Below are positions 2,397-63,684 of a DNA stretch of 64,000 bases, in pieces. Within the stretch, counting starts at the first letter, position 1; each line of letters opens with the position of its first letter. Location: the NCBI GenBank assembly GCA_026075535.2, contig AP026538.1, positions 16,438,337 to 16,502,336 on the forward strand, written 5' to 3'. The notes below the pieces were generated by a model. The model ran no database searches. It had not been told where the DNA came from and saw only the letters and a list, made by a program, of their open reading frames with translations. Source of the stretch: Tricholoma matsutake (taxonomy: Eukaryota; Basidiomycota; Agaricomycetes; Agaricales; Tricholomataceae). The position numbers and the translations under genes were made by a program.

Positions 2397-4219
2397 CTAT
2401 CCTGGATCCCACGCAAGTGAGTTGAACGACCCAAGGGCTGGGTTATTGTCCATGAATTTGTGAAAGCCCTCGACAGAGTCGGGGCTTGCGCGAGTTTCTT
2501 TGCGATCCACCTTGGGGCAGACACGTAGTAAGTGGTCTCGAGTTTGTATCTCAGGACCAAGGCACCAACACTGGTATTCCCCGTCAAGGGATAAACGTTG
2601 ACGATACTCCCCTATAGGAGCATGGCCAGTCATCATGCGAGTTGAATGAGAGGTCAACGTAGTGTTGTTTCCCATTACTTTCAGCCAAGGCCCACCTTTG
2701 TGAGTCGAGGGTAATACTGGTTTTCCACCCACTCCTTTGAGTTGGTAGAAGTGTCGTCCACGGTACGCAGGATCTGCGAATCGAGTGTGCCAGTCCTTAC
2801 ACACGGCCTTTTCGACCTGGTTTCTAAGGTAATCTAAAGACGTCCGCGGGTGTCTGCCCACGGAGATCTTGGTAGATGTAGCTACATCATGAGCCATCTT
2901 GTGTACGTTCCACTCGAACTTCGAGGGAACGTGCCAGAATGTAACATTTCTCTCCTCGTCCCCGGATAGCCAGGGACGAAGGGAGCGACAAGCGTCCAGA
3001 GCAAAGATTTGCTCAGAGCGTGGTTTAGGATCAGTTAGGGACTCAATGCCCGTAGTAGAATCCGAGAATATCACCAACTTTTTGCATCCTCTGCTGCACG
3101 CAGCCGAGACGCCCAGTTGGAGAGCAAAGAGTTCGACTTCTGGGGGGGTTCTCCTCCCAGAAGCAGAGACAACGCGATCCACCTGTTCTCCTTGTCCGAA
3201 GACCAGAGCACAGGCGACAGCCTGAAATTTAGCATCTGTGGGCACTGAGGCGTCCACTGCAACGACGAGAGTGTCGTCTTCGACCAGGGCAGAAGCCCAG
3301 GCTTTATCGAGGTCACTCCTATAAGAATTCCTCGCTTCATCCTCCTTAGAGGTGAGATGATGAGAGGAGAAACGAGTGGGGAATAAATCCTTCACTCTGT
3401 TTCCAGGTGTGTTTTCTTCCCCAAAGGGGTCGAATTCATCGCCTGGTACGAGGGCCAAGGCTGCAGCCGAAGCGACAGACGGCCCTTGCAAGGTGAGTGT
3501 GTCGAGCACGTTCCCTCCCCAGAGACCTAGCTCATGAGAATGGGTGGTGCCGATGTGATTGGGCCCTAAGATAGCTCTTAGGGGGTGTGAAGGAGCCAAT
3601 AGAGGCGTTCTGAATACCCCTCTGTCGACTAGACGACGCAGTAACAGCTGCATGGGCAGCAGTCCTGCGATGCTTTCCAGACCGCCGATTGGGGTGGTTC
3701 TGAAGGCACCGAGGATCCAGCGAGCAGCGATGGACTGCACCTGGGCCAGCGTTTTGATGACACCTTTGACGCGAGCGCCTTTGAAGTGCCATAATCTGAG
3801 ACCGTACGTCATAATGGGTACGACGCACGAACGGTAGAGTAGGCGTTTCTGCATAGGGGTTAGCCCTCTGACAGAATTGCCCAGCATTCCCATCGCCCTC
3901 GCAGTGGTGAGAGCTTTGGTGGAGTAGAATCGCATGTGCTCCTTGAAGGAGAGCTTACGGTCGAAGAAGAATCCGAGGTACCTCCAGGTGACCTTGGGTT
4001 TGAGAGGGGTATTGCCCGTATAGGGGGCAAATCCCAGATCGATGGGTAGGGGAGTGAACCTCCTCGCCCTTGAGAAATGAAATATTTCAGACTTGTCGTG
4101 TTCTAGGACAAGTCCGAGGGAGGTGAATGCCTGGAAGATCCAGCCATACGCTTTTTTGAGGAGGGGGAGATTATCCTCCAACTGTGGGGAGCGGGCGATG
4201 AGGGTACCATCGTCCACAT
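2397..4219 (-). pseudogene. A3 ORF2, 3' segment (late RT, RNase H, CCHC)
   Basis: The open frame from the B2 insertion to the stop at 2397-2399 covers the end of the RT catalytic motif (DDGTL), thumb, RNase H and C-terminal CCHC. All four RNase H acidic positions (VDAS, EVELF, FSDS, AHDVA) are present. The frame is continuous with the segment at 6475-8534 once the B2 insertion and one 13-bp duplication are removed. The only disabling lesion seen in ORF2 is the insertion itself. Confidence 0.9.
4207..4219. repeat. Target-site duplication of B2, left copy
   Basis: CCATCGTCCACAT at 4207-4219 is repeated at 6475-6487 on the other side of B2. Both copies lie in A3 ORF2 at the RT YVDD region, which proves a nested insertion. 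Confidence 0.95.
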
Positions 4220-4850
4220 TTTTTTTTTTTTTGGGTCAACAATTTATAACGCGGGGCTCGATCGCAGTCCGCGGAGCAGGATACAAACTTGGGTACTACT
4301 GTAACTACGCTTCCCCTCCCCCATCTCCTACCCAGGTCCTCGTTTTAGCCACTTTAGGCGGGCAGTGCCACAGACGTTGGCCTCTCAGCCAGGAAAGGCA
4401 ATAATCTGGAGGGGGAGCCCCCCCTCCCGAAGCTAGCCATTAACTCGTCCACCAGTGCAGAACGGTCCCCCAGCCACATATCCAACCGAAGTCAGATCAG
4501 GCGCGGCCGTGTTAATTCACTGTAAATCCCCCCTTGCGGGAGGAATAACCGTCTGCATGCTCCTGGCCAGCGAGGATTGACCACCCCAGACGAATGAGGT
4601 GGACCATCACCGCGCTCCCGCACGAGTGACAGAGATGTGGTAGCTGGTTGTTCACCTGGTTATTCACCGGAACTACCGTGGATAGGGGGCCAAGGCCCCC
4701 TTCGAGTAGATGCCGTCGAGGGCACACGCTCAGTAACAACGTCCCCCCCGCAGCGGGGAGAAGGTAGAGGGAAGCGACAAACTGTCACTATCCCGATATC
4801 GGCCACCAACTAATTGGTGGGAGTAGATGTGGGGGGGTGACACCCCCCTT

Positions 4851-5690
4851 TCAGTAGCGGCGCTGCTGTGCTCGAGGACCTCGAGGACGGCGGCGTCGTG
4901 ATGAGGACGAGGGTTCCCCATGATGGAGCTCTACATGAGCTGCCTGCCTAGCCGCGTAGGAAGCCCTGAAGGCTGCCGGTGATGTGAGGTCGAGAGGCAA
5001 TCCGGCAGCTGCTAGTTCTGCCGACATTGGCTCAGACAATCGCCAGGTGGTCGTGAATAGTTCCCAGGCCATCTGACGCCATGCGTTCCTCTCAATGAGC
5101 GGAACGGCGGATACTCGGACGGTACCGACGAAAATCGTCATAGCCTCCAGTAAATGTAGAAAGCCATGAGAGGTGGACGTTATGTCCACCCTCTCATCTC
5201 TCGACAACGGAGGCTCATCCTCCACCAACTCTGGGATGGCGGATGAACCCGGTGATGTGGGGAGGGGCGGCGCAGATTGCTCCTGCTGCCCCTCCGGATA
5301 GAGGAGCTCGGCGATGCCGAGCTCTTGATTGTTGTTGGCCTCGAGCCCAAGCTCGAGAGCCAGATCATGCACTTCATCGGCTATCACTTGTGATGCCAAG
5401 AAGCGGTTTATCGTCTCCTGCGAGGCTAGCTCGGTGAGACCCGGAATGAATTCGACGTCTCTGCCGGTGGCAGAGCCGTCGTCGTCGTCTGGCAGGTCGG
5501 AGGAGTCATCCTCCGCCCAAAGATTGTGGAACTGGTTAGCCACATCAGAGTCCCATCCGCTCAGGGAGACGTGTCCGAACTCTGGGAGGTAATTGTCGTC
5601 GAAGTCTGCGAAGTCGGCGTTTGTGTATAGGAGGGGGTCGCCATGAGCCGCCTGGTGTCGAGTTCGCGCTCTGCGGTTTGTAGAGGGCAT
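4851..5690 (-). CDS. Family B protein, type 1 (279 aa, unknown function)
   Basis: I do not recognise a known domain. Residues 1-13 are basic (RRARTRH). Residues 59-72 are strongly acidic (EDDSSDLPDDDDG). A conserved QELGIAELLYPE block lies at 122-133 and IPELVEDE at 152-159. A highly conserved, probably helical region spans about 173-247 (RNAWRQMAWELF, then TTWRLSE and PLDLTSPAAF). The tail is arginine-rich (265-278, RRRRPRGPRAQQRR), suggesting nucleic-acid binding or nuclear import. The C-terminal half is nearly identical to the ORFs at 35004-35840 and 62002-62811, although the N-terminus differs from the latter. The start is the first ATG after the leader. The protein is not part of A ORF1 or ORF2. 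A role as an RNA-binding or RT-recruiting factor is speculation. Confidence 0.8.
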   Translation of the reverse strand: MPSTNRRARTRHQAAHGDPLLYTNADFADFDDNYLPEFGHVSLSGWDSDVANQFHNLWAEDDSSDLPDDDDGSATGRDVEFIPGLTELASQETINRFLASQVIADEVHDLALELGLEANNNQELGIAELLYPEGQQEQSAPPLPTSPGSSAIPELVEDEPPLSRDERVDITSTSHGFLHLLEAMTIFVGTVRVSAVPLIERNAWRQMAWELFTTTWRLSEPMSAELAAAGLPLDLTSPAAFRASYAARQAAHVELHHGEPSSSSRRRRPRGPRAQQRRY

Positions 5691-6466
5691 TGAGGATGAT
5701 TTAGCAGAAGTAGATGACGGTAAAAGTCAAGGTACGTAGCGTGATAACGATAACAGACGGTCCCTTATCTCAATTCCGGGTCCACCCGACACAGCCTCCA
5801 GACGCTCCGAGGGGGCAGACAGGCCGCAAATCCTGCTGCAGATTGGGAGGGGCAATTGAACCCGGTTCCGAACACCTTGAGGGTGTGAGTGCCGGAGGTA
5901 AAGAGTCGGTGGTAAGTAGCGGCCACCAGAGCGTTGACCTAGCCACCAGGGGGCACCATCGCCCGGCCCCTTTTAATGATGGTGTATTCCAATGGGTAGT
6001 CAGTGTAGCAGGTCTCTAGATGTAGAAACTCACGCAACATGGAGGTAGGAAGCCTCCCAGACGACCCACAATCCAGTGAATATGTCCCTCCTCCTGAACC
6101 AGACCTCCCCCAGCTAAGCGAATGCGACGACTTGGGCGAGCGTTGAAGTAGGCATCCCACACCCACTCTAAGCCCCCATAGGGGCCCAGACTACTCTTTC
6201 ATTGCCAACACTCACCTAACCAGGATCCTCGAAGCCCAGGAGAACGAGACGAATAGCAGACACTGTCAAAAACAGTGACCGGGGCATCCACAGAGATCGG
6301 ATGGACGGATCTCTTAGCAAATCAGGGCAGGCCTGGAGACGCCGAGAGCGTTCGTGATGGCGAAATCCGATCGAAAATCGGACCAAAATTGAGGTGTCGA
6401 CGTCGCGTGCAACGTTGAGCAGAGGTGTTTACCACTATTTATGGTGGTTGTAACAAGTCAAGGAGC
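5691..6466 (-). promoter_or_regulatory. B2 5' leader with conserved hairpins
   Basis: The leader of about 775 nt has no long ORF. It contains a 5'-terminal hairpin (CCAC...GTGG close to the start), a TCCGAT...ATCGGA stem, and a stem CACTGT-TTTTG-ACAGTG at 6261-6277. The last is supported by paired base changes in other B copies. It may contain an internal promoter, which the sequence cannot show. Confidence 0.55.
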
Positions 6467-6474
6467 GTTTTTGG

Positions 6475-8534
6475 CCATCGTCCACATAGGACATGAGGTC
6501 GACATCTCTGCCGACTTCGCTTCTCCTGAAGAGCTTCATGATGGGCATCAAATATAACGCCGACAGGACAGGGGACAGAGCAGACCCCTGTCCCACCCCC
6601 ACATCTGCTGCAAAGGAGCCCGATGAGAAAGCGTTCCATTTGTAGGTCGTCTTGCGACCAACTAGGTAAGACCGGAAGAAGTTCACTACTTGCGCAGGGA
6701 ACCCCGACCGAGAGGTGATTTCCAACAGAACCTGGTGGTTCAAGGAGGGGAAGAATTGAGCGATGTCGAAAGCGACAACGCTCGTTTTAAGTCCCTTGGC
6801 CCAACCTGCCCTAACCAGGTGGGTAAGGTAGATACCCGCATCCTCAGTGGAACGCTGGGCGACGCCTCCAAATTGATTTTGTTCGAAAGCCTCGTGTGCG
6901 ACACCGTCGAACTGAAGTCGCCTCGACAACATCTTTTCGACTAATTTACCCAGAGTGTTCAGAAGCACGATGGGCCTGAACGACTTAGGGGTAGAGTAAT
7001 TAGGTTTCCCTGGTTTGGGGATAATAACCGACAGGGACTCCTTAAAATGATCTGGCCAGTGGCCAGCGGTGATGCACGCCTCAGCAATGCGGGTGATGAG
7101 CCCTGCCACTTCTGGGTTGCTACACCAGTGTTTTAGGTGCGACCACGTAACATGATCGGGACCTGGAGCGGAACGGGAAGAACACGCATTTAGCGCTTCT
7201 TTCATTTCCGTAACGGAGAACGGGATCCAGGCCCTTTCAGGCACCGGATCAAGTTCATCCAGGATGCTCAGATCGACTACTCGATCTGAGGCAGCGTTAT
7301 AGGACCCATCCAGGGCAGCCCAAAGGGAGTCCAGATCGTTGCAGGGTTCTCCCCGATAGGAGATAGCCTCGTACGACGGGAGGTTGCGTTGACGAGTCCA
7401 GGACATCAAATCCCAAGGTCGTCTGTTCATCGTAGCCACTTCCTGGATACGGTCGTCGAAAAAGTTGCGCTTCGCGTGTCGCATGACTTTCCTATAGAGC
7501 TTCCAGTCCTCTTTGTCACGAGAGGCTCTGTACGCGTCGAGGGCGCCACTGCATTCGTCTGTCCACCAGCCTTTGGACGACTTGCCGAGGCGAGATTCCT
7601 TGGCATGGTTTTCCCATGCCTTGTTTAAAATCGTTGATATCGCCGAAACGATCTCATCGATTTCTGCCGAAGTATCTCCGTGCCAGTTTAGCCACGGAGT
7701 TAAAGCGGAGGAGACAGCATCTCGATAAGATGCTTCCTCCTCGGATCCTTTTTTGATGGACCACTTGGTAACCGGAACCAAAGATCCCGGACCAGGCAGA
7801 ACTAACGTCAGGGGGGCGTGGTCAGACGTTCCCCTGGCTTCAGGTACAATCTCGCAGTACAGTACAAATCTAAGATCTGTAGGTACGAACATCAGGTCGA
7901 TCACCGTGGGGTGAAGGCCCTGTTGTGGGGGGAAGTGGGTAGGGCCCTCCACTACTGGTAGAGCTCTGGTCAGGCCTAGTGCCATAGCCGTTTCCACTAA
8001 GTGGTCAGCATGAATTGAGTGTGCAGGCCCCTGGGGGTCCCAGGATGCGTGTCTCACGTTGAAATCGCCGCACATGAAGTGTAGTTGGGGGATCAGCATG
8101 ACGCTCTCAAATAAGAGCGTGATGGCAGAGTGTTGGCTATCCGAGTAGACGTTAGCGAGTAGCATGACGTCTTCCCCTATTCCCAGGGAAAAGAGGAGGA
8201 TGTCACGATCGTCGATCAGATCTCGTCTGAGACCAGGTCTTAGATTAGCGATGCTGTTCGCAAAATAGACGGCAACGCGTGGAGGGGACTCGATTCCCGA
8301 CAGGCGCACCAAGGTACCCCAGTTAGGGCTCATTGGTGCGCCGATAACTTCCTCCCCTTCCCTGTTGTGGGCAGAAGGGGCGTGTCTTATTAAGCGCCAA
8401 GGCGGCTCTTGGATGAAAAGCAAATCATAGTCGTCTACGAAATCTGCCAGTAAAGAGTCCATGTAACCCCAGTTTCTGTTTACATTCTGACTAAATATGC
8501 GTAGCTGGGGGGTGGATCTGAGTCTATCCCTCAT
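6475..8534 (-). pseudogene. A3 ORF2, 5' segment (endonuclease and RT)
   Basis: ORF2 starts at 8534, immediately after the ORF1 stop. The AP endonuclease carries SQNVNRN, QEPPW, CGDFNVRH and TSDHA. The RT carries APGPDHVTW, IPKPGK, AFDIAQFFPS, GQGSALSP and the YVDD box. The frame is open to the B2 insertion at YVDD and resumes at 4219. The broken end near 6435-6474 reads through B2 leader sequence. Confidence 0.9.
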
Positions 8535-17878: not shown

Positions 17879-18643
17879 AGTTAATGCTAGTAGGTGATAG
17901 TAGAAATCAAGATACGTAGTGTGCCATCGATAACAGTTGGTCCCTTATCTCTATTCCGGGTCCACCCGATACTGCCTCCGAATGCTCCGAGGGGGGGACA
18001 GGCCGCACATCCTGTAACCCAGTGGGAGAAGATTGAACCCAGGTCATAACACCCTAGAAGAGTGAACACCGGAGGTAGAGAGTTGGTGGTGAGTAGCGGC
18101 CACCAGAGTGTCGACCTAGCCGCCAGGGGGCACCATCGCCCGGCCTCTTTTAACGATGGTGTATTCCAATGGGTAGTCAGTGTAGCATGTCTCTAATAAT
18201 AGAAACTCACAGAGCATGGAGGCTGGGAGCCTCCCAGACGGCCAGCAGTCCAGTAAGAACGTCCTTCCCCCTAAGCCAGACCTCCCCCAGCTAAACGAGC
18301 GCTTCTACTTGGGCGAGCGTTGAAGCAGGCATCCCACACCCACTCTAAGCCCCCATAGGGACCCAGACTACTCTTTCATAGACATCACTCACCTAGCCAG
18401 GATCCTCGAAGCCAAGGGGAACAAGACAGATAGCAGTCACTGTTGGAAACAATGACCGAGACATCCCCGGAGATCGGATGGACGGATCTCTTAGCAAATC
18501 AGGCCAGGCCTGGAGACGCCGAGAGCGTTCGTGATGGCAAAATCCGATCGAAAATCGGACAAAAATTGGAGTCTCAACGTTGCTACCAACATCGAGCAGG
18601 AGTGTTTACCACTGTTTATGGTGGTTGTGACAAGTCAAGGAGC
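17879..18643 (-). mobile_element. B3: family B 5' leader (no ORF)
   Basis: The complete B leader runs from just upstream of the ORF start codon to the 5' end (GCTCCTTGACTTG in sense at 18643). It contains the CATTGT/ACAGTG hairpin (sense) with a G-U pair. The ORF and 3' UTR are missing. Their place is taken by A5 in the same orientation. Confidence 0.85.
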
Positions 18644-21954: not shown

Positions 21955-22728
21955 GCTCCTTGACTTGTTACAACCACCATAAATAGTGGTAAACACCTCT
22001 GCTCAACGTTGCACGCGACGTCGACACCTCAATCTTTGTCCGATTTTCGATCGGATTTCACCATCACGAACGCTCTCGGCGTCTCCAGGCTTGCCCTGAT
22101 TTGCTAAGAGATCCGTCCATCCAATCTCCGGGGATGTCTCGGTCATTGTTTCCAACAGTGACTGCTATCTGTCTTGTTCCCCTTGGCTTCGAGGATCCTG
22201 GCTAGGTGAGTGATGTCTATGAAAGAGTAGTCTGGGTCCCTATGGGGGCTTAGAGCGGGTGTGGGATGCCTGCTTCAATGCTCGCCCAAGTAGAAGCGCT
22301 CGTTTAGCTGGGGGAGGTCTGGCTTAGGGGGAAGGACGTTCTTACTGGACTGCTGGCCGTCTGGGAGGCTCCCAGCCTCCATGCTCTGTGAGTTTCTATT
22401 ACTAGAGACATGCTACACTGACTACCCGTTGGAATACACCATCGTTAAAAGGGGCCGGGCGATGGTGCCCCCTGACAGCTAGGTCGATGCTCTGGTGGCC
22501 GCTACTCACCACCAACTCTCTACCTCTGGTGCTCACTCTTTTAGGGTGTTATGACCCGGGTTCAATCTTCTCCCACCAGGCAACAGGATGCGCGGCCTGT
22601 TCGCCCCCTCGGAGCGTTTGGAGGCTGTATCGGGTGGACCTGGAACTGAGATAAGGGGCCATCTGTTATCGACCTTACGCTACATATTTTGACTGTTATC
22701 GTCATTTACCTGTGCTAACTCACTCTCA

Positions 22729-23371
22729 ATGCCCAAACGGCTGAACAGAGACCAAACCACACACTGGGGCCTTCACGACCCCACCTTGATTATGGGTGAC
22801 ATCGTTGGTGATGATGCCCAAGACTACGACACCCAGTTCTCACAGAACGAACTGGAGGTAGCAGCTGCCCTAGGCAGTTTGAGATCTGTGGGCTGGGGAG
22901 GACCTCCCCGACCCTGACAACTATGTGGACTCTCTTGCTAGGCAGGAGGCCCTCGCTTACACTGCACGCTGCGTATTTCGATCACTAGCATCATATACCA
23001 GTACTAACTTGCTCCTGATGCCCAAGCGGACAACCAGAGATGATCGTTCCAATGATCCTACGCCTCCGGCAGCTGTTCCAGCTTCCTGTGTGGCGATGCC
23101 AACAGCTCTAGCAGAGCTCCAATCTGGGGAACCCTCGTTCCCAGTACAGTGCCGTCATCATCACAGATGGCCGTGCTGCTACTTGTGTGGGGCATTCTGC
23201 TCCACACCCATCACCGCCAGTCCGCTGGCTGCTGTCGGGTTGGTGACAAATGTCGCTACCCTTTACGTTCTCCCCGCTGCGGGGGGGAAATTGCTATCGA
23301 GTGCATGTGCTGGCAGTGCATTTGCTCGAGGGGGGCTTTGGCCCCCTGCTTACGGCGGTTCCGGTGAATAA
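22729..23371 (+). pseudogene. Short-B scrambled ORF (B5)
   Basis: The frame starts like the type 2 B protein (MPKRLNRDQT...GDI) and keeps about 50 matching codons. It then shifts frame near LRSVGW and stops at 22917. The next open stretch (from 22925) has the DSLA-QEAL block. It then runs into a second copy of the leader/ORF junction (about 22970-23020, with another MPKR start) and joins directly to the SGEPS region near the C-terminus, out of frame with the arginine tail. The whole conserved helical core is missing, so a functional B protein is not expected. Confidence 0.75.
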
Positions 23372-23486
23372 CCAGGTGAACAACCAGCTGCCACATTACT
23401 GTTACTCGTGCATGACACGGTGATGGTCCACCTCGTTCGTCCGGGGTGGTCAATCCTCGTGGGCTGGGAGTATGCGGACGGTTATT

Positions 23487-23502
23487 CCTCCCGCAAGGGG
23501 GG
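23487..23502 (+). other. GNRA-capped hairpin in B 3' UTR
   Basis: CCTCCC-GCAA-GGGGGG folds into a 6-bp stem (one G-U pair) with a GCAA tetraloop. The same bases occur in B2 (near 4529), B6 (34682), B7 (39510), B8 (47419) and B10 (61680). A second stem, GGGGGC-TTT-GGCCCCC, lies near 23331-23346. Confidence 0.55.
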
Positions 23503-23827
23503 ATTTACGGTGAATTGACACCACTGCGCCTGATCTGACTTCGGTTGGATATGTGGCCGGGGGACCGCTTCGCACCAGCTGACGATCTAATGGCTAGCTT
23601 CGGGGGAGGGGGTCCCCCCCTCCAGATTATTGCCTTTCCTGGCTGAGAGGCCAACGTCTGTGGCACTGCCCGCCTAAAGTGGCTAAAACAAGGACCTGGG
23701 TAGGATATGGGTGAGGGGAAGCATAGTTATAGTAGTACCCAAGTTTGTATCCTGCTCCGTGGACTGCGATCGAGCCCCGCGTTATAAATTGTTGACCCAA
23801 AAAAAAAAAATAGGAAAGTCATGCGAC

Positions 23828-24825: not shown

Positions 24826-24826
24826 G
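24811..24826. repeat. Target-site duplication of A8, left copy
   Basis: ATGTCCTATGTGGACG at 24811-24826 is repeated at 31274-31289. The final G may belong to the element, giving 15-16 bp. Confidence 0.95.
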
Positions 24827-24952
24827 TCGCTTCTTGTCTTCTTACCGTGACGTGCACAGCCACAAAAAACCTCGTCGACACCGTTTTTTACTTTTGTAGC
24901 TCAATCCGTCCTCGATCTTAGCGATCCGGTATAACCAGCGTCTTACCAGCGC

Positions 24953-26863
24953 ATGTCAGAATCATACTTGAGAAAAGGGGGGAGATCGGGCGAAGCGATG
25001 GACGAGGGGAGACCTTCTAGATCCGGTACGCCCAGAACTCCTGGCGATGATCCAATTGACTCCCTGCGGCTCTCTTCGAGCCGCAGATCCACACAGAACG
25101 CACCCTCAGTGGGCCCTCACAGGACCCAAAGAGGTTCTCCTACCCCCTCCCCCTATGGGGCGGGCACCGTCACTCCGCGAGCACAGCGTTTCAGCGTGCC
25201 AGCGCTATCTTCCAGGGATGCGACTGCGTCTCCTGCACCCCCGGCTACCCCTTCTACACCTGCTTCGTGGGCGGATGAAGTGGCCGATAACCTCTCTACC
25301 CACGTCATCCAAGACACGGAGATGGCTAGCGACGACTGGAGTGGACCCCAGACCTTCGCCAAAGACTTGGGAGAGTACGCTGAAGGATTCCGTGTTGTCC
25401 TCAACAGGACGGGATCTCGTCGACCTACTGCTGAAGACCGGCAGCTTATAGCGGAACGCCTGGGCTCGGTGCTGGTAGCAGCTGCCGAGGCTGGCATAGA
25501 TCGCGACTCGGGGAGTTCTGTGCTCCGGGGAGCAATAGATAGAATCGCAGGAGGCAGTAAACGACCTAGGTCGGGTACGGTCACCGACAATCCCAATGTG
25601 GATTACCTGGAGGGATGGGATGGGCAACGCCCCCCCCCTCACAAATCTTCGAGAACTCGAGGCCCGAAAGGGGCTCGACCTCTTCCAAAACCCCCAACAG
25701 GGGGCGTCTCTACGTCATGGGGTCGAGGACCACCTCCCCCCGTGAACTGGTCCACCAGGCCTTCGGGCAGGGGGACCTTCGCTCAGGTTGCTCGCTTCCC
25801 TGGGGGGCGAACACCTAACACATCCATGGATGGTCTTGTGCGTCTAGCCAAGGCCTTCCCTGAACTTCCAACCGACAAGCTGGCTGACATACAGCAGCAT
25901 GTAGGCCCATCTAAACCGAAGGCGTCCAAGCCTTCACCTACTGTACATGGACCGTCGAGACGACAGGTCCTTGTCCACGTTCGTCCCCCCCTCGGTGCAG
26001 AGACGAACCCAGCTGACTTCCTGGACCATGTCCGGATCACTCTCGGACTGCACCACTCCAAATTGGTGGCCCAGTCCGCATCAATGCACGCTGGTAACAT
26101 ATCAGTAGCTACAGACGTCGTCGCCTCGGAAGAGGACCTTCGTTGTTTCAAGGAGGCCGCCCATAAGGCGTTCCCGTTCGCTCTGCAAGTAGACGCAGCG
26201 TTACCCACCTCCACATCGTACCTCAAGTTGGTAGATGTGCCGTTTATCGCTAACGACAAGGCTTTAACGCCTGACGTTGTTATTGCACACTTGGGCAAGT
26301 CCGGAATATCGGACCTCACAGTGCTTCAGGTCCCTCCCCGTGTTGTACGTGATTCGAAGATGTCGGATACGTGCACCGTCTACCTTAACATCGCTGACTC
26401 GGTCAGCGGTGCACGAGCTAAGGCTCTTATCGGTCGGGGCGTCCAATTTGGACGCTACGTCGCCTATGTTAGGGCTGCCAGGGCGAACCCCGGACTGCCC
26501 CTGTGCCAACGATGCTGGAAGTGGGGTCACCCCACCCAGGCATGCAGAGCTCCACAGACCAAGTGTCCGATCTGTGCAGGCCCACACCGTAAGGAGCACC
26601 ATCGTGCCCTTGCGGGGTGTTGTAAGGGTAATGCCAAGGCAAACCCTCCCGTTCCAGCTACCCCAGAGGGGGCAGCCTGTCCTCACCCGGCTAGGTGTAT
26701 AAACTGCCGGAAAAATCACGCATCCGACGATTGTCGATGCAACTTTTGGCGACATCGCTTTGACCGTGACTGGATCAAAGCTCGCTATGACGAGGTGAGT
26801 GCAAGACGCAACTCTCGCTCCTCTCCTGCTTACCATCCCGCAGGACGCGGTGGCCGAACGTAA
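24953..26863 (+). CDS. A8 ORF1: gag-like RNA-binding protein (636 aa)
   Basis: It starts at the first in-frame ATG after the 5' UTR. Residues 1 to about 110 are Ser/Pro-rich and likely disordered. A charged central part follows, with the conserved TFAQVARFPGGRTPN and VLVHVRPP blocks. Three CCHC knuckles lie at about C518-C521-H526-C531, C538-C541-H545-C556 and C582-C585-H589-C594. The ARANPGLPLCQRCWKWGH segment is typical of fungal LINE gag proteins. Compared with A3 it differs clearly in the N-terminal 230 residues (for example SYLRKGGRSGE at the start) and is nearly identical near the knuckles. Subtype A-2 is shared with A12. The role is RNA binding and RNP assembly. It ends in TAA directly before the ORF2 ATG, in the same frame. 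Confidence 0.93.
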   Translation: MSESYLRKGGRSGEAMDEGRPSRSGTPRTPGDDPIDSLRLSSSRRSTQNAPSVGPHRTQRGSPTPSPYGAGTVTPRAQRFSVPALSSRDATASPAPPATPSTPASWADEVADNLSTHVIQDTEMASDDWSGPQTFAKDLGEYAEGFRVVLNRTGSRRPTAEDRQLIAERLGSVLVAAAEAGIDRDSGSSVLRGAIDRIAGGSKRPRSGTVTDNPNVDYLEGWDGQRPPPHKSSRTRGPKGARPLPKPPTGGVSTSWGRGPPPPVNWSTRPSGRGTFAQVARFPGGRTPNTSMDGLVRLAKAFPELPTDKLADIQQHVGPSKPKASKPSPTVHGPSRRQVLVHVRPPLGAETNPADFLDHVRITLGLHHSKLVAQSASMHAGNISVATDVVASEEDLRCFKEAAHKAFPFALQVDAALPTSTSYLKLVDVPFIANDKALTPDVVIAHLGKSGISDLTVLQVPPRVVRDSKMSDTCTVYLNIADSVSGARAKALIGRGVQFGRYVAYVRAARANPGLPLCQRCWKWGHPTQACRAPQTKCPICAGPHRKEHHRALAGCCKGNAKANPPVPATPEGAACPHPARCINCRKNHASDDCRCNFWRHRFDRDWIKARYDEVSARRNSRSSPAYHPAGRGGRT

Positions 26864-26866
26864 ATG
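26861..26866 (+). promoter_or_regulatory. In-frame TAA-ATG stop-start between ORF1 and ORF2
   Basis: The ORF1 stop and the ORF2 start are adjacent codons in one frame (ACG TAA ATG AGG). The same arrangement is kept in A3 (8537/8534), A4 (12741/12738), A7 (20895/20898), A9 (38366/38369), A10 (43665/43668) and A12 (58321/58318). ORF2 could be made by termination-reinitiation, as known for the UAAUG overlap of the silkworm LINE SART1, or by stop readthrough. Confidence 0.8.
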
Positions 26867-29800
26867 AGGGATAGACTTAGATCTACACCGCAGTTGCGTA
26901 TATTTAGTCAGAATGTTAACCGTAATTGGGGATACATGGACTCGTTACTGGCAGACCTTATAGACGACTATGATTTGCTTTTCATACAAGAGCCTCCATG
27001 GCGATTAATAAGATACGCCCCCTCTGCCCATAACAGGGAGGGGGAAGAAGTCATAGGCGCACCGATGAGCCCAAACTGGGGAACATTAGTGCGCCCCTCG
27101 GGTATTGATTCCCCTCCACGCGTTGCTGTCTACTTCGCGAATAGCATCGCTAATTTAAGACCAGGTCTCAGACGAGATCTGATCGATGATCGTGATATCC
27201 TCCTTTTCTCACTGGGAATAGGTGAGGACGTCATGCTACTCGCCAACGTCTACTCAGACAGCCAACATTCTGCCATCACACTCCTGTTTGAGAACGTCAT
27301 GACGATCCCACGCTTACACTTCATGTGTGGCGATTTCAACGTGAGACACGCTTCCTGGGATCCCCAGGGACCTGAGCACTCGATTCACGCTGACCACTTA
27401 GTGGAAACGGCTACGGCACTAGGCCTGACTAGAGCCCTACCAGTAATGGAGGGCCCCACTCATTTCCCCCCACAACAGGGCCTTCACCCCACAGTGATCG
27501 ACCTGATGTTCGTGCCTACAGATCTTAGATTTGTATTGTACTGTGAGATCGTACCTGAAGCCAGGGGGACGTCTGACCACGCCCCTTTGACATTAGTGCT
27601 GCCTGGCCCGGGATCGTTGGTTCCGGTCACCAAGTGGTCCATCAAAAAAGGATCCGAGGAGGAGGCATCCTATCGGGATGCTGTCTCCTCTGCTTTAACT
27701 CCGTGGCTAAATTGGCATGGGGATACCTCGGCAGAGATCGATGAAGTCGTTTCGGCGATATCAACGATCTTAAACAAGGCGTGGGAAAACCACGCCAAGG
27801 AATCTCGCCTAGGCAAGTCATCCAAAGGTTGGTGGACGGACGAATGCAGCGGTGCTCTTGACGCTTACAGAGCCTCTCGCGACGAGGGGGACTGGAAGCT
27901 CTATAGGAAAGTCATGCGACACGCAAAACGTGACTTTTTTGATGACCGTATCCAGGAAGTGGCTACGATGAATAGACGACCCTGGGACCTTATGTCTTGG
28001 ACTCGTCAACGCAACCTCCCGTCGTACGAGGCAATCTCCTATTGGGGAGAACCTTGTAACGATCTGGACTCTCTTTGGGCTGCCCTTGATGGGTCCTATA
28101 ACGCCGCCTCAGATCGAGTTGTCGATCTGAACTTCCTTGATGACCTTGATCCGGTGCCTGAAAGGGCCTGGATCCCGTTCTCTGTTACGGAAATGAAAGA
28201 AGCGCTAAATGCGTGTTCTTCCCGCTCCGCTCCAGGTCCCGATCATGTTACATGGTCGCACCTTAAACACTGGTGCACTAACCCAGAAATGGCAGGGCTC
28301 ATTACCCGCATTGCTGAGGCGTGCATCACTGCTGGCCACTGGCCGGCCCACTTCAAGGAATCCCTGTCGGTTATTATCCCGAAACCAGGGAAACCTAACT
28401 ACTCTACCCCTAAGTCGTTCAGGCCTATTGTGCTACTGAACACTCTGGGCAAGTTAGTCGAGAAAATGCTGTCTAGGCGACTGCAGTTCGACGGTGTTGC
28501 ACACGAGGCCTTCGAACAAAACCAGTTCGGAGGCGTCGCCCAGCGTTCCACTGAGGACGCAGGAATCTACCTTACCCACCTGGTCAGGGCAGGATGGGCC
28601 AAGGGGCTCAAAACGAGCGTTGTCGCTTTCGACATCGCCCAATTCTTTCCCTCCTTGAACCATCAAGTTCTGTTGGAGATCATCTCTCGGTCGGGGTTCC
28701 CTGCGCAAGTAGTGAACTTCTTCCGTTCATACCTTGTCGGTCGCAGAACGACCTACAAATGGAACGCTTTCTCGTCTGGCTCCTTTGCAGCAGATGTGGG
28801 AGTGGGTCAAGGCTCTGCTCTGTCCCCTGTCTTATCGGCGTTATACCTAACGCCCGTTATGAAACTCTTCAGAAGAAGCGAAATCGGCAGGGATGTCGAT
28901 CTCATGTCCTATGTGGACGATGGCACTCTCATCGCCCGCTCTCCACAGCTGGAGGATAACCTCCCCCTTCTCAAAGAAGCGTATGGCTGGATCTTCCAGG
29001 CATTCACCTCCCTCGGACTTGTCCTGGAACATGACAAGTCTGAAATATTTCATTTCTCGAGGGCGAGGAGTTTTACTCCCCTACCCATCGATCTTGGATT
29101 TGCTCCCTACACGGGCAACACCCCTCTCAAACCCAAGGTCACCTGGAGGTACCTCGGATTCTTCTTCGATCGCAAACTCTCCTTCAAGGAGCACACGCGA
29201 TTCTATTCCACCAAAGCCCTTACCACGGCAAGGGCAATGGGAATGCTTGGCAATTCTGTCAGAGGGTTAACCCCTATGCAGAAACACCTTCTGTACCATT
29301 CGTGTGTCGTACCTATTATGACATACGGGCTCAGACTGTGGCACTTCAAGGGCGCTCGCGTCAAAGGTGTCATCAAAACGTTGGCCCAAGTGCAGGCCAT
29401 TGCTGCACGTTGGATCCTCGGTGCATTCAGAACCACCCCAATCGGTGGCCTGGAAAGCATCGCGGGACTGCTGCCTATGCAGCTGTTACTGCGTCGTCTA
29501 GTCGACAGAGGGGTGTTCAGAACCCCCCTATTGGCTCCATCACACCCCCTAAGAGCGATCTTAGGGCCCAATCATGTCGGCACCACCCACTCTCATGAGC
29601 TAGGTCTCTGGGGAGGGAACGTGCTCGACACGCTTAACCTGCAAGGCCCATCTGTAGCCTCGGCTGCAGCTCTGGCCCTCGTACCAGGCGATGAATTCGA
29701 CCCCTTTGGGGAAGAAAACACACCTGGAAACAGAGTGAAGGACTTATTCCCCACTCGCTTCTCCTCTCATCGCCTCACCTCTAAGGAGGATGGAGCGAGG

Positions 29801-30733
29801 AATTCTTACAGGAGTGACCTCGATAAGGCCTGGGCCTCTGCCCAGGCCGAGGAAGACACTCTCGTCGTTGCAGTGGACGCTTCGGTGCCCACGGATGCCA
29901 AGTTTCAGGCGGTTGCCTGCGCTCTTGTCTTCGGACAGGGAGAGCAGGTGGATCGCGTTGTCTCAGCCTCTGGGAGGAGAACCCCCCCAGAGGTCGAACT
30001 CTTTGCTCTCCAACTGGGCGTCTCAGCTGCGTGCAGCAGAGGATGCAAAAAGTTGGTGATATTCTTGGATTCTACTACGGGCATTGAGTCCCTAATTGAT
30101 CCTAAGCCACGCTCTGAGCAAATCTTTGCTCTGGACGCCTGTCGCTCCCTTCGTCCCTGGCTATCCGGGAACGAGGAGAGGAACGTCACATTCTGGCATG
30201 TGCCCTCGAAGTTCGAGTGGAACGTACACAAGATGGCTCACGATGTAGCTACGTCTACCAAGATCTCCGTGGGCAGACACCCGCGGACGTCTTTAGATTA
30301 CCTTAGAAACCAGGTCGAAAAGGCCGTTTGTAAGGATTGGCACACTCGGTTCGCAGATCCTGCGTACCGTGGACGACACTTCTACCAACTCAAAGGGGTC
30401 GGTGGAAAACCAGTTCTACCCTCGACTCACAAAGGTGGGCCTTGGCTGAAAGTAATGGGAAGCAACACCACGTTGACTTCTCGTTCAACTCGCATGATCA
30501 CTGGCCATGCTCCCATAGGGGAGTATCGCCAACGTTTATCCCTCGACGGGGAATACCAATGTTGGTGCCTTGGTCCCGAAATACAAACTCGAGACCACTT
30601 ACTACGCGTTTGCCACAAGGTGGATCGCAAAGAGACTCGTGCAAGCCCAGACTCTGTCGAAGGCTTCACTGAATTTATGGACAATAACCCAGCACTAGGG
30701 TCGTTCAACTCACTTGCGTGGGATCCAGGATAG
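26864..30733 (+). CDS. A8 ORF2: endonuclease, reverse transcriptase, RNase H (1289 aa)
   Basis: The domains in order are as follows. AP-type endonuclease, residues 10-250: N17/N20, QEP 42-44, GDFN 156-159, SDH 237-239. Reverse transcriptase, about 440-760: APGPDH 456-461, IPKPGK 505-510, catalytic D590 in AFDIAQFFPS, GQGSALSP 648-655, YVDD 683-686. RNase H, about 1000-1130: D1005, E1045, D1069, D1127. C-terminal knuckle: C1233-C1235-H1245-C1250. It nicks the target and copies the element RNA from its poly(A) end (target-primed reverse transcription). All key residues are present. The box is YVDD, not the FADD of many animal LINEs. Oddities are FLDS in place of FSDS and CHK in place of CPK after the last knuckle. 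The start is the ATG abutting the ORF1 stop. It is probably a competent enzyme and a donor for family B. Confidence 0.95.
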   Translation: MRDRLRSTPQLRIFSQNVNRNWGYMDSLLADLIDDYDLLFIQEPPWRLIRYAPSAHNREGEEVIGAPMSPNWGTLVRPSGIDSPPRVAVYFANSIANLRPGLRRDLIDDRDILLFSLGIGEDVMLLANVYSDSQHSAITLLFENVMTIPRLHFMCGDFNVRHASWDPQGPEHSIHADHLVETATALGLTRALPVMEGPTHFPPQQGLHPTVIDLMFVPTDLRFVLYCEIVPEARGTSDHAPLTLVLPGPGSLVPVTKWSIKKGSEEEASYRDAVSSALTPWLNWHGDTSAEIDEVVSAISTILNKAWENHAKESRLGKSSKGWWTDECSGALDAYRASRDEGDWKLYRKVMRHAKRDFFDDRIQEVATMNRRPWDLMSWTRQRNLPSYEAISYWGEPCNDLDSLWAALDGSYNAASDRVVDLNFLDDLDPVPERAWIPFSVTEMKEALNACSSRSAPGPDHVTWSHLKHWCTNPEMAGLITRIAEACITAGHWPAHFKESLSVIIPKPGKPNYSTPKSFRPIVLLNTLGKLVEKMLSRRLQFDGVAHEAFEQNQFGGVAQRSTEDAGIYLTHLVRAGWAKGLKTSVVAFDIAQFFPSLNHQVLLEIISRSGFPAQVVNFFRSYLVGRRTTYKWNAFSSGSFAADVGVGQGSALSPVLSALYLTPVMKLFRRSEIGRDVDLMSYVDDGTLIARSPQLEDNLPLLKEAYGWIFQAFTSLGLVLEHDKSEIFHFSRARSFTPLPIDLGFAPYTGNTPLKPKVTWRYLGFFFDRKLSFKEHTRFYSTKALTTARAMGMLGNSVRGLTPMQKHLLYHSCVVPIMTYGLRLWHFKGARVKGVIKTLAQVQAIAARWILGAFRTTPIGGLESIAGLLPMQLLLRRLVDRGVFRTPLLAPSHPLRAILGPNHVGTTHSHELGLWGGNVLDTLNLQGPSVASAAALALVPGDEFDPFGEENTPGNRVKDLFPTRFSSHRLTSKEDGARNSYRSDLDKAWASAQAEEDTLVVAVDASVPTDAKFQAVACALVFGQGEQVDRVVSASGRRTPPEVELFALQLGVSAACSRGCKKLVIFLDSTTGIESLIDPKPRSEQIFALDACRSLRPWLSGNEERNVTFWHVPSKFEWNVHKMAHDVATSTKISVGRHPRTSLDYLRNQVEKAVCKDWHTRFADPAYRGRHFYQLKGVGGKPVLPSTHKGGPWLKVMGSNTTLTSRSTRMITGHAPIGEYRQRLSLDGEYQCWCLGPEIQTRDHLLRVCHKVDRKETRASPDSVEGFTEFMDNNPALGSFNSLAWDPG

Positions 30734-31257
30734 GTTGTGCGCGCAGGGCGTATGACCCCCGTCTGGTTCTAGCTAGTGTTATCGGTATGTCGGGGTGGCC
30801 GTAGGGCACCAGACGAGTCCGTTAACCCTCATTAAGGGGGCCCACCCGTGTTCAGGAGCGACTGTCAGGGAGGGGGGACACGAACCTAGGTACCGGTTCG
30901 GGGAGGCGTCTGAGCGCTTCCAGATCCGCTGTCGGTTGCGCGTTACGGCTTCGACGCCGACTACGCCTTCCTTTCCGAGCTGAGAGGCTCACGTCAGGGC
31001 GGCAGTCTCCCCTAAATCTTGCACACATACCCGTAGGGATTCGGGGCACACGACATCGTCAAGCTCGAGTTGTCGGTACGCCACCACTGGCAAGTCCGTT
31101 TACTCGATAAAGGGAGCCCCCTCAGTGGCCTTTGCAGTTATCCAGGTGGTTGGTGCGAAGATCAGCAGGAGGAGGACTTGGGCTGGGCATAGTGTACTCT
31201 GTTTGTATGTCTCTACCGCGGACTGCGATCGGGCGCCGCGTTATAAACTTTTGACCC
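30734..31257 (+). other. Family A 3' UTR with diverged internal repeat and G/C palindrome
   Basis: Two related units lie in every 3' UTR: AGTCCGTTAACCCTCAT...GGGGGCCCA, and downstream AGTCCGTTTACTCGATAAAG followed by GGGGCCCC. In most copies the second contains the palindrome AAGGGGGCCCCCTT (mutated in A8). The UTR ends with GCGGACTGCGATC...CGCGTTATAAACTTTTGACCC. The last ~55 nt are shared with family B, and weaker similarity (GCTGAGAGGC--ACGTC) extends further upstream. Confidence 0.7.
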
Positions 31258-31288
31258 AAAAAAAAAAAAAAAAATGTCCTATGTGGAC

Positions 31289-34360: not shown

Positions 34361-36613
34361 TTTTTTTTTTTTTTTTTTTTTTTTGGGTCAAAAATTTATA
34401 ACGCGGGGCTCGAACGCAGTCCGCGGAGCGGGGTACAAACTTGGGTACTACTCTATCTACGCATTCCCCTCGCCCATCTCCCACCCAGGTCCCCGTTTTA
34501 GCCACTTTAGGCGGGCAGTGCCACAGACGTTGGCCTCTCAGCCAGGAAAGGCAATAATCCGGAGGGGGAGCCCCCCCTCCCGAAGCTAGCCATTAGGTCG
34601 TCAGCTAGTGCAGAACGGTCCCCCAGCCACATATCCAACCAAGGTCAGATCAGGCACGGCCGTGTTAATTCACTGTAAATCCCCCCTTGCGGGAGGAATA
34701 ACCGTCCGCATGTTCCCAGCCAACGAGGGTTGACCACCCCAGGCGAATGAGGTGGACCATCACTGTGCCTGCGCACAAGTGATGAAAATGAGGTAGCTGG
34801 TTATTCACCTGGTTACTCACCAGAACTACCGTAGGCAGGGGGCCAAGGCCCCCCTCGAGCAAGTGCCAACACATGCACGCGCTCGATGACAACGTCCCCC
34901 CCGCAGCGGGGAGAAGGTGTAGGGTAACGGCTAAGCGTCATTGTCCTGATAATGGCCACCACTCCTGTGGTGGGCGTATATGTGGAGGGGTGGTTCCCCT
35001 TTTTTAATAGCGACGCTGCTGTGCTCGAGGACCTCGAGGACGACGGCGACGTGCTGGGGACGAGGGTTCCCCAGATTGAGGCTCTGATTGAGCTGCTAGC
35101 ATCGCCGCATAGGAAGCTCGAAAGGCTGCCAGTGACGTGAGATCAAGAGGTGACGCGGCAGCTGCTAGTTCTGCCGACATCGTCTCAGACAATCGCCATG
35201 TGGCTGTGAATAGGTCCCAAGCCATCTGACGCCATACGTTCCTCTCCGTAAGAGGGACGGCAGACACTCGGATGGTACCGACGAAAATCGTCATTGCCTC
35301 CAGTAGATGTAGAAAGCCATGAGAGGTGGCTGTTAATTCCGCCCTCTCATCTCTCGACAACGGAGGCTCATCCTCCACCAACTCTGGGATGGCGGATGAA
35401 CCCGGTGAAGTGGGGAGGGGCGGCACAGATTGCTCCTGCTGCCCCTCTGGATAAAGGAGCTCGGCGATGCCGAGCTCCCGATTGTTGTTGGCCTCGAGCC
35501 CAAGCTCGAGAGCCAGATTACTCGTATCGTTGGCCACCTGCTGTGACCACAAGACGCGGTTTATAGTCTCCTGCAAGGCTAGCTCGGTGAGACCTGGGAT
35601 GAATTCGACGTCTCCGCCAATGGCAGAGTCATCAACTTCTGATAGGTCGGAGGAGTCGTCCTCCGACCATAGATTGTGGAGCTGGTTGTCCACATCGGAG
35701 TCCCATCCACCCAAAGAGATGTGACCAAACTCCGGGAGATAGTCGTCGTCGAAGTCTGCAACGTTGAAATTGGAGTGTAAGAGGGGGTCGCTGTGCGCCA
35801 CCCGGTGTCAAATTCGCGCTCTACGGTTTGCAGAGGGCATTGAGGATGATTTAGCAAAGTAGATGACGGTAGAAGTCAAGATACGTAGCGTGATAACGAT
35901 AACAGACGGTCCCTTATCTCAATTCCAGATCCACCCGATATAGCCTCCAATCGCTCCGAGGGGACAGACAAGCCACACATCCTGCTGTCGAGTGGGAGAA
36001 GATCGAACCCGGGTCATACCACCCCAAAGGAGTGAGCACCGGAGGTGAGAAGTTGGTGGTGAATAGCGGCCACCAGAGCATCGACCTAGCCATCAGGGGG
36101 CACCATCACCCGGCCCCTTTTAACGATGGTGTATTCCAATGGGTAGTCAGTGTAGCATGTCTCTAGTAGTAGAAACTCACAAAGCATGGAGGCTGGAAGC
36201 CCACCAGGCGACCAGCAGTCCAGTGAGAGTGTCCCTCCTCCTAAGCCAGACCTCCCCCAACTAAGCGAATGCGACGACATGGGCGAGCGTTGAAGTAGGC
36301 ATCCCACACCCACTCTAAGACCCCCAAGGGACCCAGACTACTCTTTCATTGACAGCACTCACCTAGCCAGGATCCTCGAAGCCCAGGAGACCGAGACAGA
36401 TAGCAGACACTGTCAGAAACAGTGCCCGAGGCATCCACAGAGATCGGATGGACGGATCCCTTAGCAAATCAGGCTACGCCTGGAGACGCTGAGAGCGTTC
36501 GTGATGGTGAAATCCGATCGAAAGTTGGACGAGAATTGCAGTGTCGACGTCGCGTGCAACGTTGAGCAGAGGTGTTTACCACTATTTATGGTGGTTGTAA
36601 CAAGTCAAGGAGC
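34361..36613 (-). mobile_element. B6: complete long family B element
   Basis: It runs from poly(T) 34361-34384 to the 5' end at 36613, about 2.25 kb, with a 15-bp TSD. It has the same layout as B2: 3' UTR with the GNRA-type hairpin, an ORF (now with an early stop) and a leader with CACTGT/ACAGTG. It is inserted in A9 ORF1. Confidence 0.93.
35004..35840 (-). pseudogene. Family B protein type 1 (B6 copy) with early stop
   Basis: The frame starts at the ATG at 35838-35840 and meets TGA at 35808-35810 (codon 11, where B2 has CGA). The rest is open, and a later ATG gives 265 aa (MAHSDPLLHSN). It retains the acidic patch (EDDSSDLSEVDD), ELGIAELLYPE, IPELVEDE, RNVWRQMAWDLF, PLDLTS and the RRRRPRGPRAQQRR tail. 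It could still make an N-terminally shortened protein. Confidence 0.8.
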
Positions 36614-38368: not shown

Positions 38369-39192
38369 ATGAGGGACAGACTTAGATCTACCCCACAGCT
38401 ACGTATATTTAGTCAAAATGTAAATCGAAATTGGGGTTACATGGACTCGATACTGGCAGATTTCGTAGACGACTATGATTTGCTTTTCATCCAAGAGCCG
38501 CCATGGCGACTGATAAGACACGCCCCGTCTGCCCACAACAGGGAAGGGGAGAAAGTAATAGGCGCACCGATGAGCCCAAACTGGGGAACGTTAGTGCGCC
38601 CCTCGGGCATTGATTCCCCCCCACGCGTTGCTGTTTACTTTGCGAACAGCATCGCTAACTTAAGACCAGGTCTCAGGCGAGATCTAATCGATAATCGTGA
38701 CATTCTCCTCTTTTCACTGGGTATAGGGGAGGACGTCATGCTACTTGCTAATGTGTACTCAGATAGCCACCACTCAGCCATCACGCTCCTATTTGAGAAC
38801 GTTATGACGATTCCCCGCCTACACTTCATGTGTGGCGACTTCAACGTGAGACATGCCTCTTGGGACCCCCAAGGGCCTGCACACTCCATCCACGCCGACC
38901 ACTTAGTGGAAACGGCCATGGCACTAGGCCTGACTAGGGCCCTACCAGTAATGGAGGGCCCTACCCACTTCCCCCCACAACAGGGCCTTCACCCCACAGT
39001 GATCGACCTGATGTTCGTACCTACAGATCTTAGATTTGTATTGTACTGTGAGATCGTACCTGAAGCCAGGGGGACGTCTGACCACGCCCCTCTGACATTA
39101 GTGCTGCCTGGCCCGGGATCTTTGGTCCCGGTCACCAAGTGGTCTATCAAAAAAGGATCCGAGGAGGAGGCATCGTACCGAGATGCCGTCTC
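38369..39192 (+). pseudogene. A9 ORF2 segment 1 (endonuclease)
   Basis: The frame is open from the ATG abutting the ORF1 stop to YRDAVS, with SQNVNRN, QEPPW, CGDFNVRH and TSDHA. It is interrupted by B7 and continues in frame at 41074. Confidence 0.9.
39179..39192. repeat. Target-site duplication of short B7, left copy
   Basis: CGAGATGCCGTCTC at 39179-39192 is repeated at 41060-41073. Five extra bases (41055-41059, GCCCT) separate the B7 5' end from the right copy. Confidence 0.92.
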
Positions 39193-61348: not shown

Positions 61349-61361
61349 GGTGGACCCAGAA
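61349..61361. repeat. Target-site duplication of B10, left copy
   Basis: GGTGGACCCAGAA at 61349-61361 is repeated at 63589-63601 in the B9 leader (up to two further T's are ambiguous with the tail). Confidence 0.93.
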
Positions 61362-63381: not shown

Positions 63382-63398
63382 CATTGTCAAAAACAATG
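63382..63398 (-). promoter_or_regulatory. Covarying hairpin in the B10 leader
   Basis: In sense it is CATTGT-TTTTG-ACAATG, a 6-bp stem. B1, B2, B6 and B9 have CACTGT/ACAGTG. B3, B5, B7 and B8 have CATTGT/ACAGTG with a G-U pair. The third pair thus exists as C-G, U-A and U-G. Confidence 0.65.
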
Positions 63399-63684
63399 AC
63401 CGGGGCATCCACGGAGATCGGATGGACGGATCTCTTAGCAAATCAGGGTAGGCCTGGAGACGCCGAGAGCGTTCGTGATGGTGAAATCCGATCGAAAATC
63501 GGACGAAAATTGAAGTGTCGACGTCGCATGCAACGTTGAGCAGAGGTGTTTACCACTATTTATGGTGGTTGTAACAAGTCAAGGAGCCGGTGGACCCAGA
63601 ATTGAGATAAGGGACCGTCTGTTATCGTTATCACGCTACGTATCTTGACTTCTACCGTCATCTACTTGTGCTAAATCATCCTCA

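Follow-up and report, generated by a model that had tools for sequence, protein, structure and literature searches.

We analysed a stretch of 64,000 nucleotides of the Tricholoma matsutake genome (the window; C1:16,438,337-16,502,336), and searched the whole 161,040,721-bp assembly, which consists of 13 contigs, for copies of the elements found in it. The window contains copies of a poly(A)-tailed retroelement, named B, and a full copy of a LINE, named A, which is the putative enzyme donor of B. The features are as follows (position, strand, description):

4207-4219, unstranded: target site duplication (TSD) on the 3' side of the B2-type element, 13 bp
4220-6466, minus: complete B2-type element, 2247 nt, with its 5' end at 6466 and its poly(A) at 4220-4232
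4220-4288, minus: 3' end of the B2-type element, about 70 nt long and 87% identical to that of LINE A
4851-5690, minus: 279-aa ORF of the B2-type element, with an acidic N-terminal half, a helical core and an RRRRPRGPR tail; used in the selection tests
5691-6466, minus: leader of the B2-type element, 776 nt, within 4220-6466
6475-6487, unstranded: TSD on the 5' side of the B2-type element, 13 bp, with 8 extra nt (6467-6474) before the element
17889-18643, minus: B 5' fragment, leader only
21955-23810, plus: short B, tailed, TSD of 18 bp, ORF middle missing and frame broken
24826-31274, plus: LINE A, full copy, putative enzyme donor (ORF1 24953-26863, ORF2 26864-30733)
34372-36613, minus: complete B element of the third subfamily, poly(A) extending to 34360, TSD of 15 bp
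35004-35801, minus: remaining 265-aa frame of the third-subfamily element
39200-41054, minus: short B, ORF middle missing, TSD of 16 bp
47109-48965, minus: short B, ORF middle missing, no TSD found
60669-61364, plus: first part of a B2-type copy split by the B10-type element
61365-63587, minus: complete B10-type element, TSD of 15 bp, nested in the B2-type copy
62002-62811, minus: 269-aa ORF of the B10-type element
63589-64000, plus: second part of the split B2-type copy, which exits the window inside the ORF

B2-type copies are about 2.25 kb long and consist of a 776-nt leader, a 279-codon ORF, a 3' UTR and a poly(A); coding B elements in general carry a single ORF of about 270-280 codons. 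Three coding subfamilies are present within the window, represented by the copies at 4220-6466, 34372-36613 and 61365-63587. The B2 and B10 types have barely similar N-terminal halves and a common C-terminal core and PRGPR tail, and the acidic N-terminal part is the most divergent region between subfamilies. One database protein, P0006, combines a B2-like N-terminus with a B10-like core, so that B mosaics exist. The original prediction, made from the sequence of the window, described these three copies as complete, and we confirmed this, with TSDs of 13, 15 and 15 bp. It further assigned poly(A) tails to four long copies and one ORF of 269-279 aa to each copy. Tails are found in the three complete copies, but the split B2-type copy (60669-61364 and 63589-64000) shows no poly(A) within its window portion; likewise, the 279-aa and 269-aa ORFs are present, but the copy at 34372-36613 is broken: codon 11 of its ATG frame is a stop, and the 265-aa ORF on the list begins at a GTG further downstream.

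The three short B copies of the window, which the original prediction did not mention, are 98.5-98.7% identical to each other. They retain the leader and the 3' UTR and match the first ~76 and the last ~46 codons of the B10-type ORF, not its middle, and their longest ATG frames encode 103-117 aa. A mosaic origin with a B2-like 3' UTR was considered and dropped, as like-for-like identity to the three types is 88.8, 88.6 and 87.0%. Short B resembles a non-coding rider of the SINE type, and because it spread recently without an intact ORF, the B protein is not strictly required in cis.

The LINE A of the window encodes a gag in ORF1 (24953-26863), and its ORF2 product passes the Pfam cut-offs for RVT_1 and for both endonuclease models, with an RNase H-like match below cut-off. 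In the three B proteins, no Pfam family was found at cut-off; no reverse transcriptase (RT) or endonuclease (EN) was recognised, in agreement with the original prediction, so B is not classified as a LINE itself. Between the A and B copies of the window, similarity is confined to the last ~70 nt, which are 87% identical. A 25-nt pattern from this common 3' end has 513 matches in the genome, and the reversed pattern has none. It includes a CGCGG/CCGCG stem that is identical in A and B; variation in the stem resembles CpG decay, with no compensatory support beyond that. Neither the folding energy of the stem nor the fold of the B2-type leader (z -0.92) is out of the ordinary. No Rfam family matched the window at the gathering threshold, and the region 4200-6480 gave only three sub-threshold matches, to other kinds of RNA, in a search that a degenerate Pol III/tRNA head could escape.

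Across the genome, 78 flanked B loci were fetched, of which 68 have a uniform 5' start and 68 have the tail and poly(A). TSDs of at least 8 bp were detected in 48 of 61 two-ended loci, and 46 of these are 13-17 bp long, with an uncertainty of 1-3 nt because a TSD may start with A adjoining the poly(A). The 5' end of B is separated from the TSD by 0-10 extra nucleotides, mostly 3-5. The same script returned one 14-bp TSD and no TSD, respectively, for two A copies. Such ends and TSDs are the hallmark of target-primed reverse transcription. B therefore has the features of a LINE-dependent element moved by this process, namely a poly(A), TSDs of variable sequence and a 3' end in common with a co-resident LINE. 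Coding B is not a SINE, which would be short and lack a protein gene, because it contains a selected ORF of about 270-280 codons. The common 3' end, the TSDs and the co-location of the two elements suggest that B depends on A, and to this extent the predicted non-autonomous, LINE-dependent nature of B is supported.

Genome-wide counts with 26-nt tags (up to 3 mismatches; a single tag misses copies without that stretch) gave 183 matches for the B2 type, 424 for the B10 type and 331 for short B, 938 for B combined, versus 426 for A. None of the four reversed tag patterns matched. The 140 matches listed for the B2 query (best 139 of 1297 candidates) all lie in one interval per chromosome, with two on C1, and the window is part of the second block of chromosome 1. 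Matches listed for the A RT (149; best 149 of 1278 candidates) fall into the same or adjoining blocks, except for one location at C10:5.45 Mb, and the outliers among the tag and tail matches listed are at C1:15.55 and 15.97 Mb, C3:0.48 and 4.49 Mb, and C6:6.84 Mb. B copies are mostly surrounded by A and B: the upstream flanks of 68 copies consist of A (41), B (20) or neither (7), and the downstream flanks of A (38), B (22) or neither (8). The concentration of B in blocks fits insertion preference and selective retention alike, and because A occupies the same blocks, the B protein is not needed to explain the location of A. According to the accessible text of a genome study, each T. matsutake chromosome has one GC-rich, LINE-rich and LTR-poor region, with two on chromosome 1, and these regions were suggested as centromeres (PMC10211490). 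Centromere status in the genus Tricholoma is presumed, without experimental proof, in the accessible part of a related study (PMC10627285).

The three window B proteins have a pI of 4.4-4.8 and no cysteine, with a charge of -15 to -25 in the N-terminal half and +8 in the last 20 residues; a tail cysteine is present in some database copies. AlphaFold modelled the whole protein with a pLDDT of 37, which is too poor for a fold search, and the core (154-161 aa) with a pLDDT of 62. Both models are weak; that of the core places helices at residues 39-65, 73-103 and 113-128 of the core. Charge figures and models thus agree with the acidic N-terminal half, helical core and Arg-rich tail that had been predicted. 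Foldseek comparison of the core with the PDB gave nothing better than E 3.2, searches of Pfam, PHROGs, NCBIfam and PDB sequences gave nothing at usable scores, and no RNA-binding domain was recognised. In a protein database of 5.8 billion entries, we found ten matches, all of them B-like: nine come from T. matsutake, and the tenth is an unnamed fragment. A profile search recovered the same ten. The search scored ~8,000 candidates sharing most words, and distant relatives could be missed.

The original prediction had called the B protein unrecognised. This holds in that BLASTP, profile, Pfam, PDB and Foldseek comparisons found no match to gag, pol or any other family, but the sequence itself is already in databases as a T. 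matsutake “CzcA-like protein” (UniProt Q9C4A5), which is 99% identical to the 279-aa B2-type ORF. CzcA is an RND metal pump with an ACR_tran-type domain, a membrane protein of about 1000 aa. We found no support for this identity: B proteins have 265-279 aa and none of the 25 members examined has an ACR_tran-type Pfam match at E 1; PDB sequence searches at E 10 likewise returned no CzcA-type chain. Kinship to the A gag, which had been suspected from the helical stretch and the PRG tail, was rejected by BLASTP and by profile comparisons, the latter run against the A gag by itself as well as against a set of 16 gags. Kinship to the A ORF2 was rejected as well, the one alignment found covering 19 columns (P 0.42).

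To determine whether the B ORF is under selection, nonsynonymous and synonymous changes (N:S) were compared with a neutral expectation from the UTR changes of B2-type and third-type copies, with unalignable inserts masked. CpG transitions were left out, as decay at CpG sites is heavy (among shared changes, C to T occurs at 0.81 per CpG site versus 0.13 elsewhere), and changes present in at least two copies were counted as shared. Shared non-CpG changes gave an N:S of 32:49 in the B2 type (48 copies; 0.24 of neutral, p 2e-10), 17:22 in the third type (30 copies; 0.29, p 2e-4) and 8:19 in the B10 type (21 copies; 0.16, p 5e-6). The shared N/S is thus 3-6 times under neutral, and this applies to the ORF frame only: within the ORF stretch, the registers at +1, at +2 and in antisense are at 1.35 to 2.55 of neutral, with two of nine at p 0.046, and the frames of the UTRs (six per type, two types) are at 0.52 to 1.92, none with p <0.05. 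With CpG transitions retained, the ratios to neutral are 0.52 (B2), 0.57 (third) and 0.30 (B10). Taken by itself, the third-type N-terminal half, with an N:S of 3:2, is uninformative. Non-CpG singletons are at 0.99 of neutral in the third type, 0.51 in the B10 type (p 0.07) and 0.43 in the B2 type (p 2e-5).

The B2 and B10 sets were picked by protein score, which biases them towards few amino-acid changes. Two sets served as controls for this bias: the third subfamily (30 of 34 listed copies, at least 84% identity) and 40 loci chosen only by similarity to the leader (DNA query 5900-6460). At 34 of these 40 loci, an ORF is listed directly downstream, and in 28 of the 40 the ORF is stop-free, two of these with shortened matches. 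ORF stretches were obtained for 32, of which 3 were unalignable and removed. The remaining 29 have a shared N:S of 5:21 (ratio 0.09, p 1e-8) and a singleton N:S of 16:17 (ratio 0.31, p 0.001), and the other two frames are at 1.1 to 2.2 of neutral. Singleton ratios below neutral fit young copies, but they also make singletons an unclean neutral yardstick in this set. Between subfamilies, dN/dS (NG86; 8 intact copies per type, from 25, 8 and 20) amounts to 0.29, 0.37 and 0.38 across 252 codons; for the 150-codon core, in which dS reaches about 0.7, the values are 0.23, 0.27 and 0.23. The shared-change ratios and dN/dS between subfamilies, which are far below 1, show that purifying selection has acted on the B protein in those lineages that have spread. 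The original prediction would have been refuted by a dN/dS near 1 across many copies, and it withstands this test: the values found are 0.23-0.38 between subfamilies, with a shared N/S of 0.16-0.29 of neutral within the three types. Selection on the coding lineages nevertheless implies that a lineage gains from the protein it encodes, by cis-preference or lineage-specific help.

We propose that B is a HeT-A-like, RT-less non-LTR retrotransposon that encodes its own ORF1/Gag-like RNP protein and relies on A for EN and RT, an account that we consider, on balance, probable. B RNA would be made and translated into B protein, which may coat or tether mainly B RNA through its Arg-rich tail, the feature that points to RNA binding. 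The helical core could mediate self-assembly, and the acidic N-terminal half might contact A proteins or centromeric chromatin. The ORF2 protein of A would then recognise the common 3' end, nick the target, prime there and copy the B RNA from that end; the common tail, the TSDs and the absence of other enzymes suggest that the enzymes of A perform this step. A bolder version, which we put forward tentatively and hold to be rather unlikely, is that the B protein is a centromere-targeting and packaging factor that evolved in a LINE parasite and that also serves short B, and perhaps A, in trans. The presumed centromeres would then be built by a community of three tiers, with enzymes from A, a protein from B and short B as rider. 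Such a community would correspond, at centromeres, to HeT-A/TART, with a “Gag” that arose independently. The original prediction had suggested, as possible roles of the protein, that it links the RNA to the RT of A or interferes with A.

The HeT-A-like account has to be weighed against other explanations of the same protein. B might derive, in the manner of HAL1 or HeT-A, from an A-like LINE by loss of ORF2, so that its protein would be an ORF1/gag which has diverged strongly and only looks unrelated. LINE ORF1s evolve fast, and the B ORF is the sole ORF after the leader and encodes a basic tail, all of which would suit such a remnant. We nevertheless think it rather unlikely: neither the A gag, in BLASTP and in profiles including 16 gags, nor the A ORF2 shows similarity to the B protein, A and B of the window have no common sequence outside the last ~70 nt, and the A gag has a pI of 9.95 and three CCHC/CCHH-like motifs, in contrast to the acidic, Cys-free proteins of the three B copies. 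The spread of short B without an intact ORF, as expected if the protein is diffusible, the excess of B tags over A tags (938 versus 426) and the strong divergence of the acidic N-terminal part between subfamilies would instead agree with a protein that protects B against the host or A, or acts on them, and does not serve the RNP of B, for example by inhibiting the packaging of A RNA or by countering silencing, so that B lineages carrying it win. This is improbable in our view, as selection is purifying, not positive, no target is in evidence, and a freely shared protein should experience weak selection per lineage.

Two further possibilities are less compatible with the selection data. An orphan protein known from one species and one unnamed fragment could be a captured host gene, either a passenger or a recent acquisition that has not yet decayed. 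Selection within and between three subfamilies, with a core dS of up to about 0.7, makes this very improbable; moreover, all ten database matches are B-like, and no host paralogue was found among the best-scored genome candidates, where a distant one could be hidden. Finally, the coding region could be kept for reasons of the RNA, such as packaging, structure or protection from decay, with the protein as a by-product. Short B, in which the leader, the 3' UTR, the ~76 first and the ~46 last codons persist in a broken frame, is in line with such a role, but constraint is seen only in the reading frame, while other frames, antisense and the tested UTRs are near or above neutral, and we give this explanation hardly any credence.

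Parts of this element may have been recorded before. The T. matsutake element marY2N is reportedly the sequence AB047280 of Murata et al. from 2001. The accessible text of the Tricholoma study describes marY2N as a LINE-like poly(A) element of T. matsutake that is enriched at the presumed centromeres of T. bakamatsutake (PMC10627285). marY2N could correspond to B (or to A), so that a publication of the B sequence may exist already, and our guess is that the “CzcA-like” entry stems from the marY2N record. Among the matches listed in our literature search, marY2N was named only in PMC10627285, and “Tricholoma matsutake” and “CzcA-like” were not found together. The titles and abstract beginnings of the papers listed on non-autonomous LINE-type elements with their own protein, which concern, among other subjects, Drosophila telomeres and HAL1, include none describing B, and in the literature searched we found no description of B as an element that parasitises A, lacks an RT and is under selection.

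To our knowledge, the majority of LINE-dependent elements either lack genes or contain part of the donor gag. A selected and apparently unrelated protein in B implies that factors for replication or targeting can arise within a retroparasite itself. Since A, coding B and non-coding B occur in the same blocks, the system permits a direct test of cis-preference, help in trans and cheating. As the presumed centromeres of this fungus consist of LINE arrays, it also allows a test of whether a retroelement protein helps to direct insertion into centromeres.

B combines features of several known types of non-autonomous elements. HAL1 (half-L1) elements contain one ORF, which is the ORF1 of L1, lack ORF2 and are moved by a LINE. 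B resembles these and other gag-only LINE derivatives in having one ORF and no ORF2, but its ORF has no detected relation to the ORF1 of A, the LINE with which it was compared. SINEs are short and do not encode proteins, whereas coding B has 2.25 kb and a selected protein. LINE/SINE partnerships with a common 3' tail are described for LINEs of the stringent type in the accessible text of PMC4176376, and, as far as that text goes, B is similar to such SINEs in that only its 3' end is common with the partner. The noaCRM elements of hop are non-autonomous centromeric LTR elements that have no RT, RH or INT and otherwise keep the domains of an autonomous partner, with which they share centromeres and on which they presumably depend, according to the accessible part of PMC12371157. 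Judged by that description, B is likewise non-autonomous and shares presumed centromeres with an autonomous partner on which it probably depends, but it is a non-LTR element and its protein is unrelated.

The closest parallel in our proposal is HeT-A. HeT-A Gag carries zinc knuckles, whereas the three window B proteins contain no Cys and have no similarity to the A gag, so that the B protein is not a Gag of the HeT-A kind. In the accessible text of PMC5537684, HeT-A is described as encoding a Gag but no RT, its own protein being apparently selected, and as an element thought to use the RT of another; its Gag, without which partner elements do not reach telomeres, resembles the Gag of TAHRE. 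B differs from the HeT-A of that text in that its protein resembles neither the A gag nor anything else found, and it differs further in sitting at presumed centromeres with TSDs of 13-17 bp. Within the same limits of the source, B is like HeT-A in being an RT-less non-LTR element with its own selected protein that occupies one chromosomal domain together with its partner, with few outliers among the matches listed.

The YVDD codons of the reverse transcriptase gene of A, the LINE that is the putative enzyme donor of B, were hit by both the B2-type copy and the full A copy of the window. The two insertions lie a few bases apart in this target, each in a different A copy, and are delimited by the following target site duplications:

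4207-4219 and 6475-6487, flanking the B2-type copy (minus strand): ATGTGGACGATGG
junctions near 24825 and 31274, flanking the full A copy (plus strand): ATGTCCTATGTGGA

Elsewhere in the window, interrupted A ORFs at 38369-39229 and 43668-47138 run on through poly(T) in antisense orientation and through the tail of B, so that their C-terminal end is ...FFFFFFWVNNL.

P0006, a database protein that matches the B protein, is a mosaic with a B2-like N-terminus and a B10-like core, which could have originated by template switching or by recombination among subfamilies. Partial, inverted copies of the leader, the part of B that precedes the ORF, immediately adjoin plus-strand B copies at C2:8074549-8074760 and C7:5875691-5875881, the latter probably reflecting nesting inside a minus-strand B10-type copy.

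In B2-type and third-type copies, CpG sites are worn down to TG/CA far more than other sites, with 0.81 shared C-to-T changes per site at CpG versus 0.13 elsewhere. This erosion suggests methylation-driven or RIP-like decay within arrays.

Chromosome 12 has, at its right-hand end, a B2-type element that is truncated within its 3' UTR and immediately followed by (TTAGGG)n (positions 2470-2603 of locus L061, C12:9,910,315-9,912,917), and the LINE block at C12 9.28-9.91 Mb therefore reaches the telomere. This chromosome end was apparently healed within a presumed centromere. Chromosome 1 carries two A/B blocks, at 7.2-7.5 Mb and 16.0-16.9 Mb, both of which contain B2-type leaders that are 98-99% identical. 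The presence of two such blocks is consistent with the published suggestion that chromosome 1 is a dicentric fusion chromosome.
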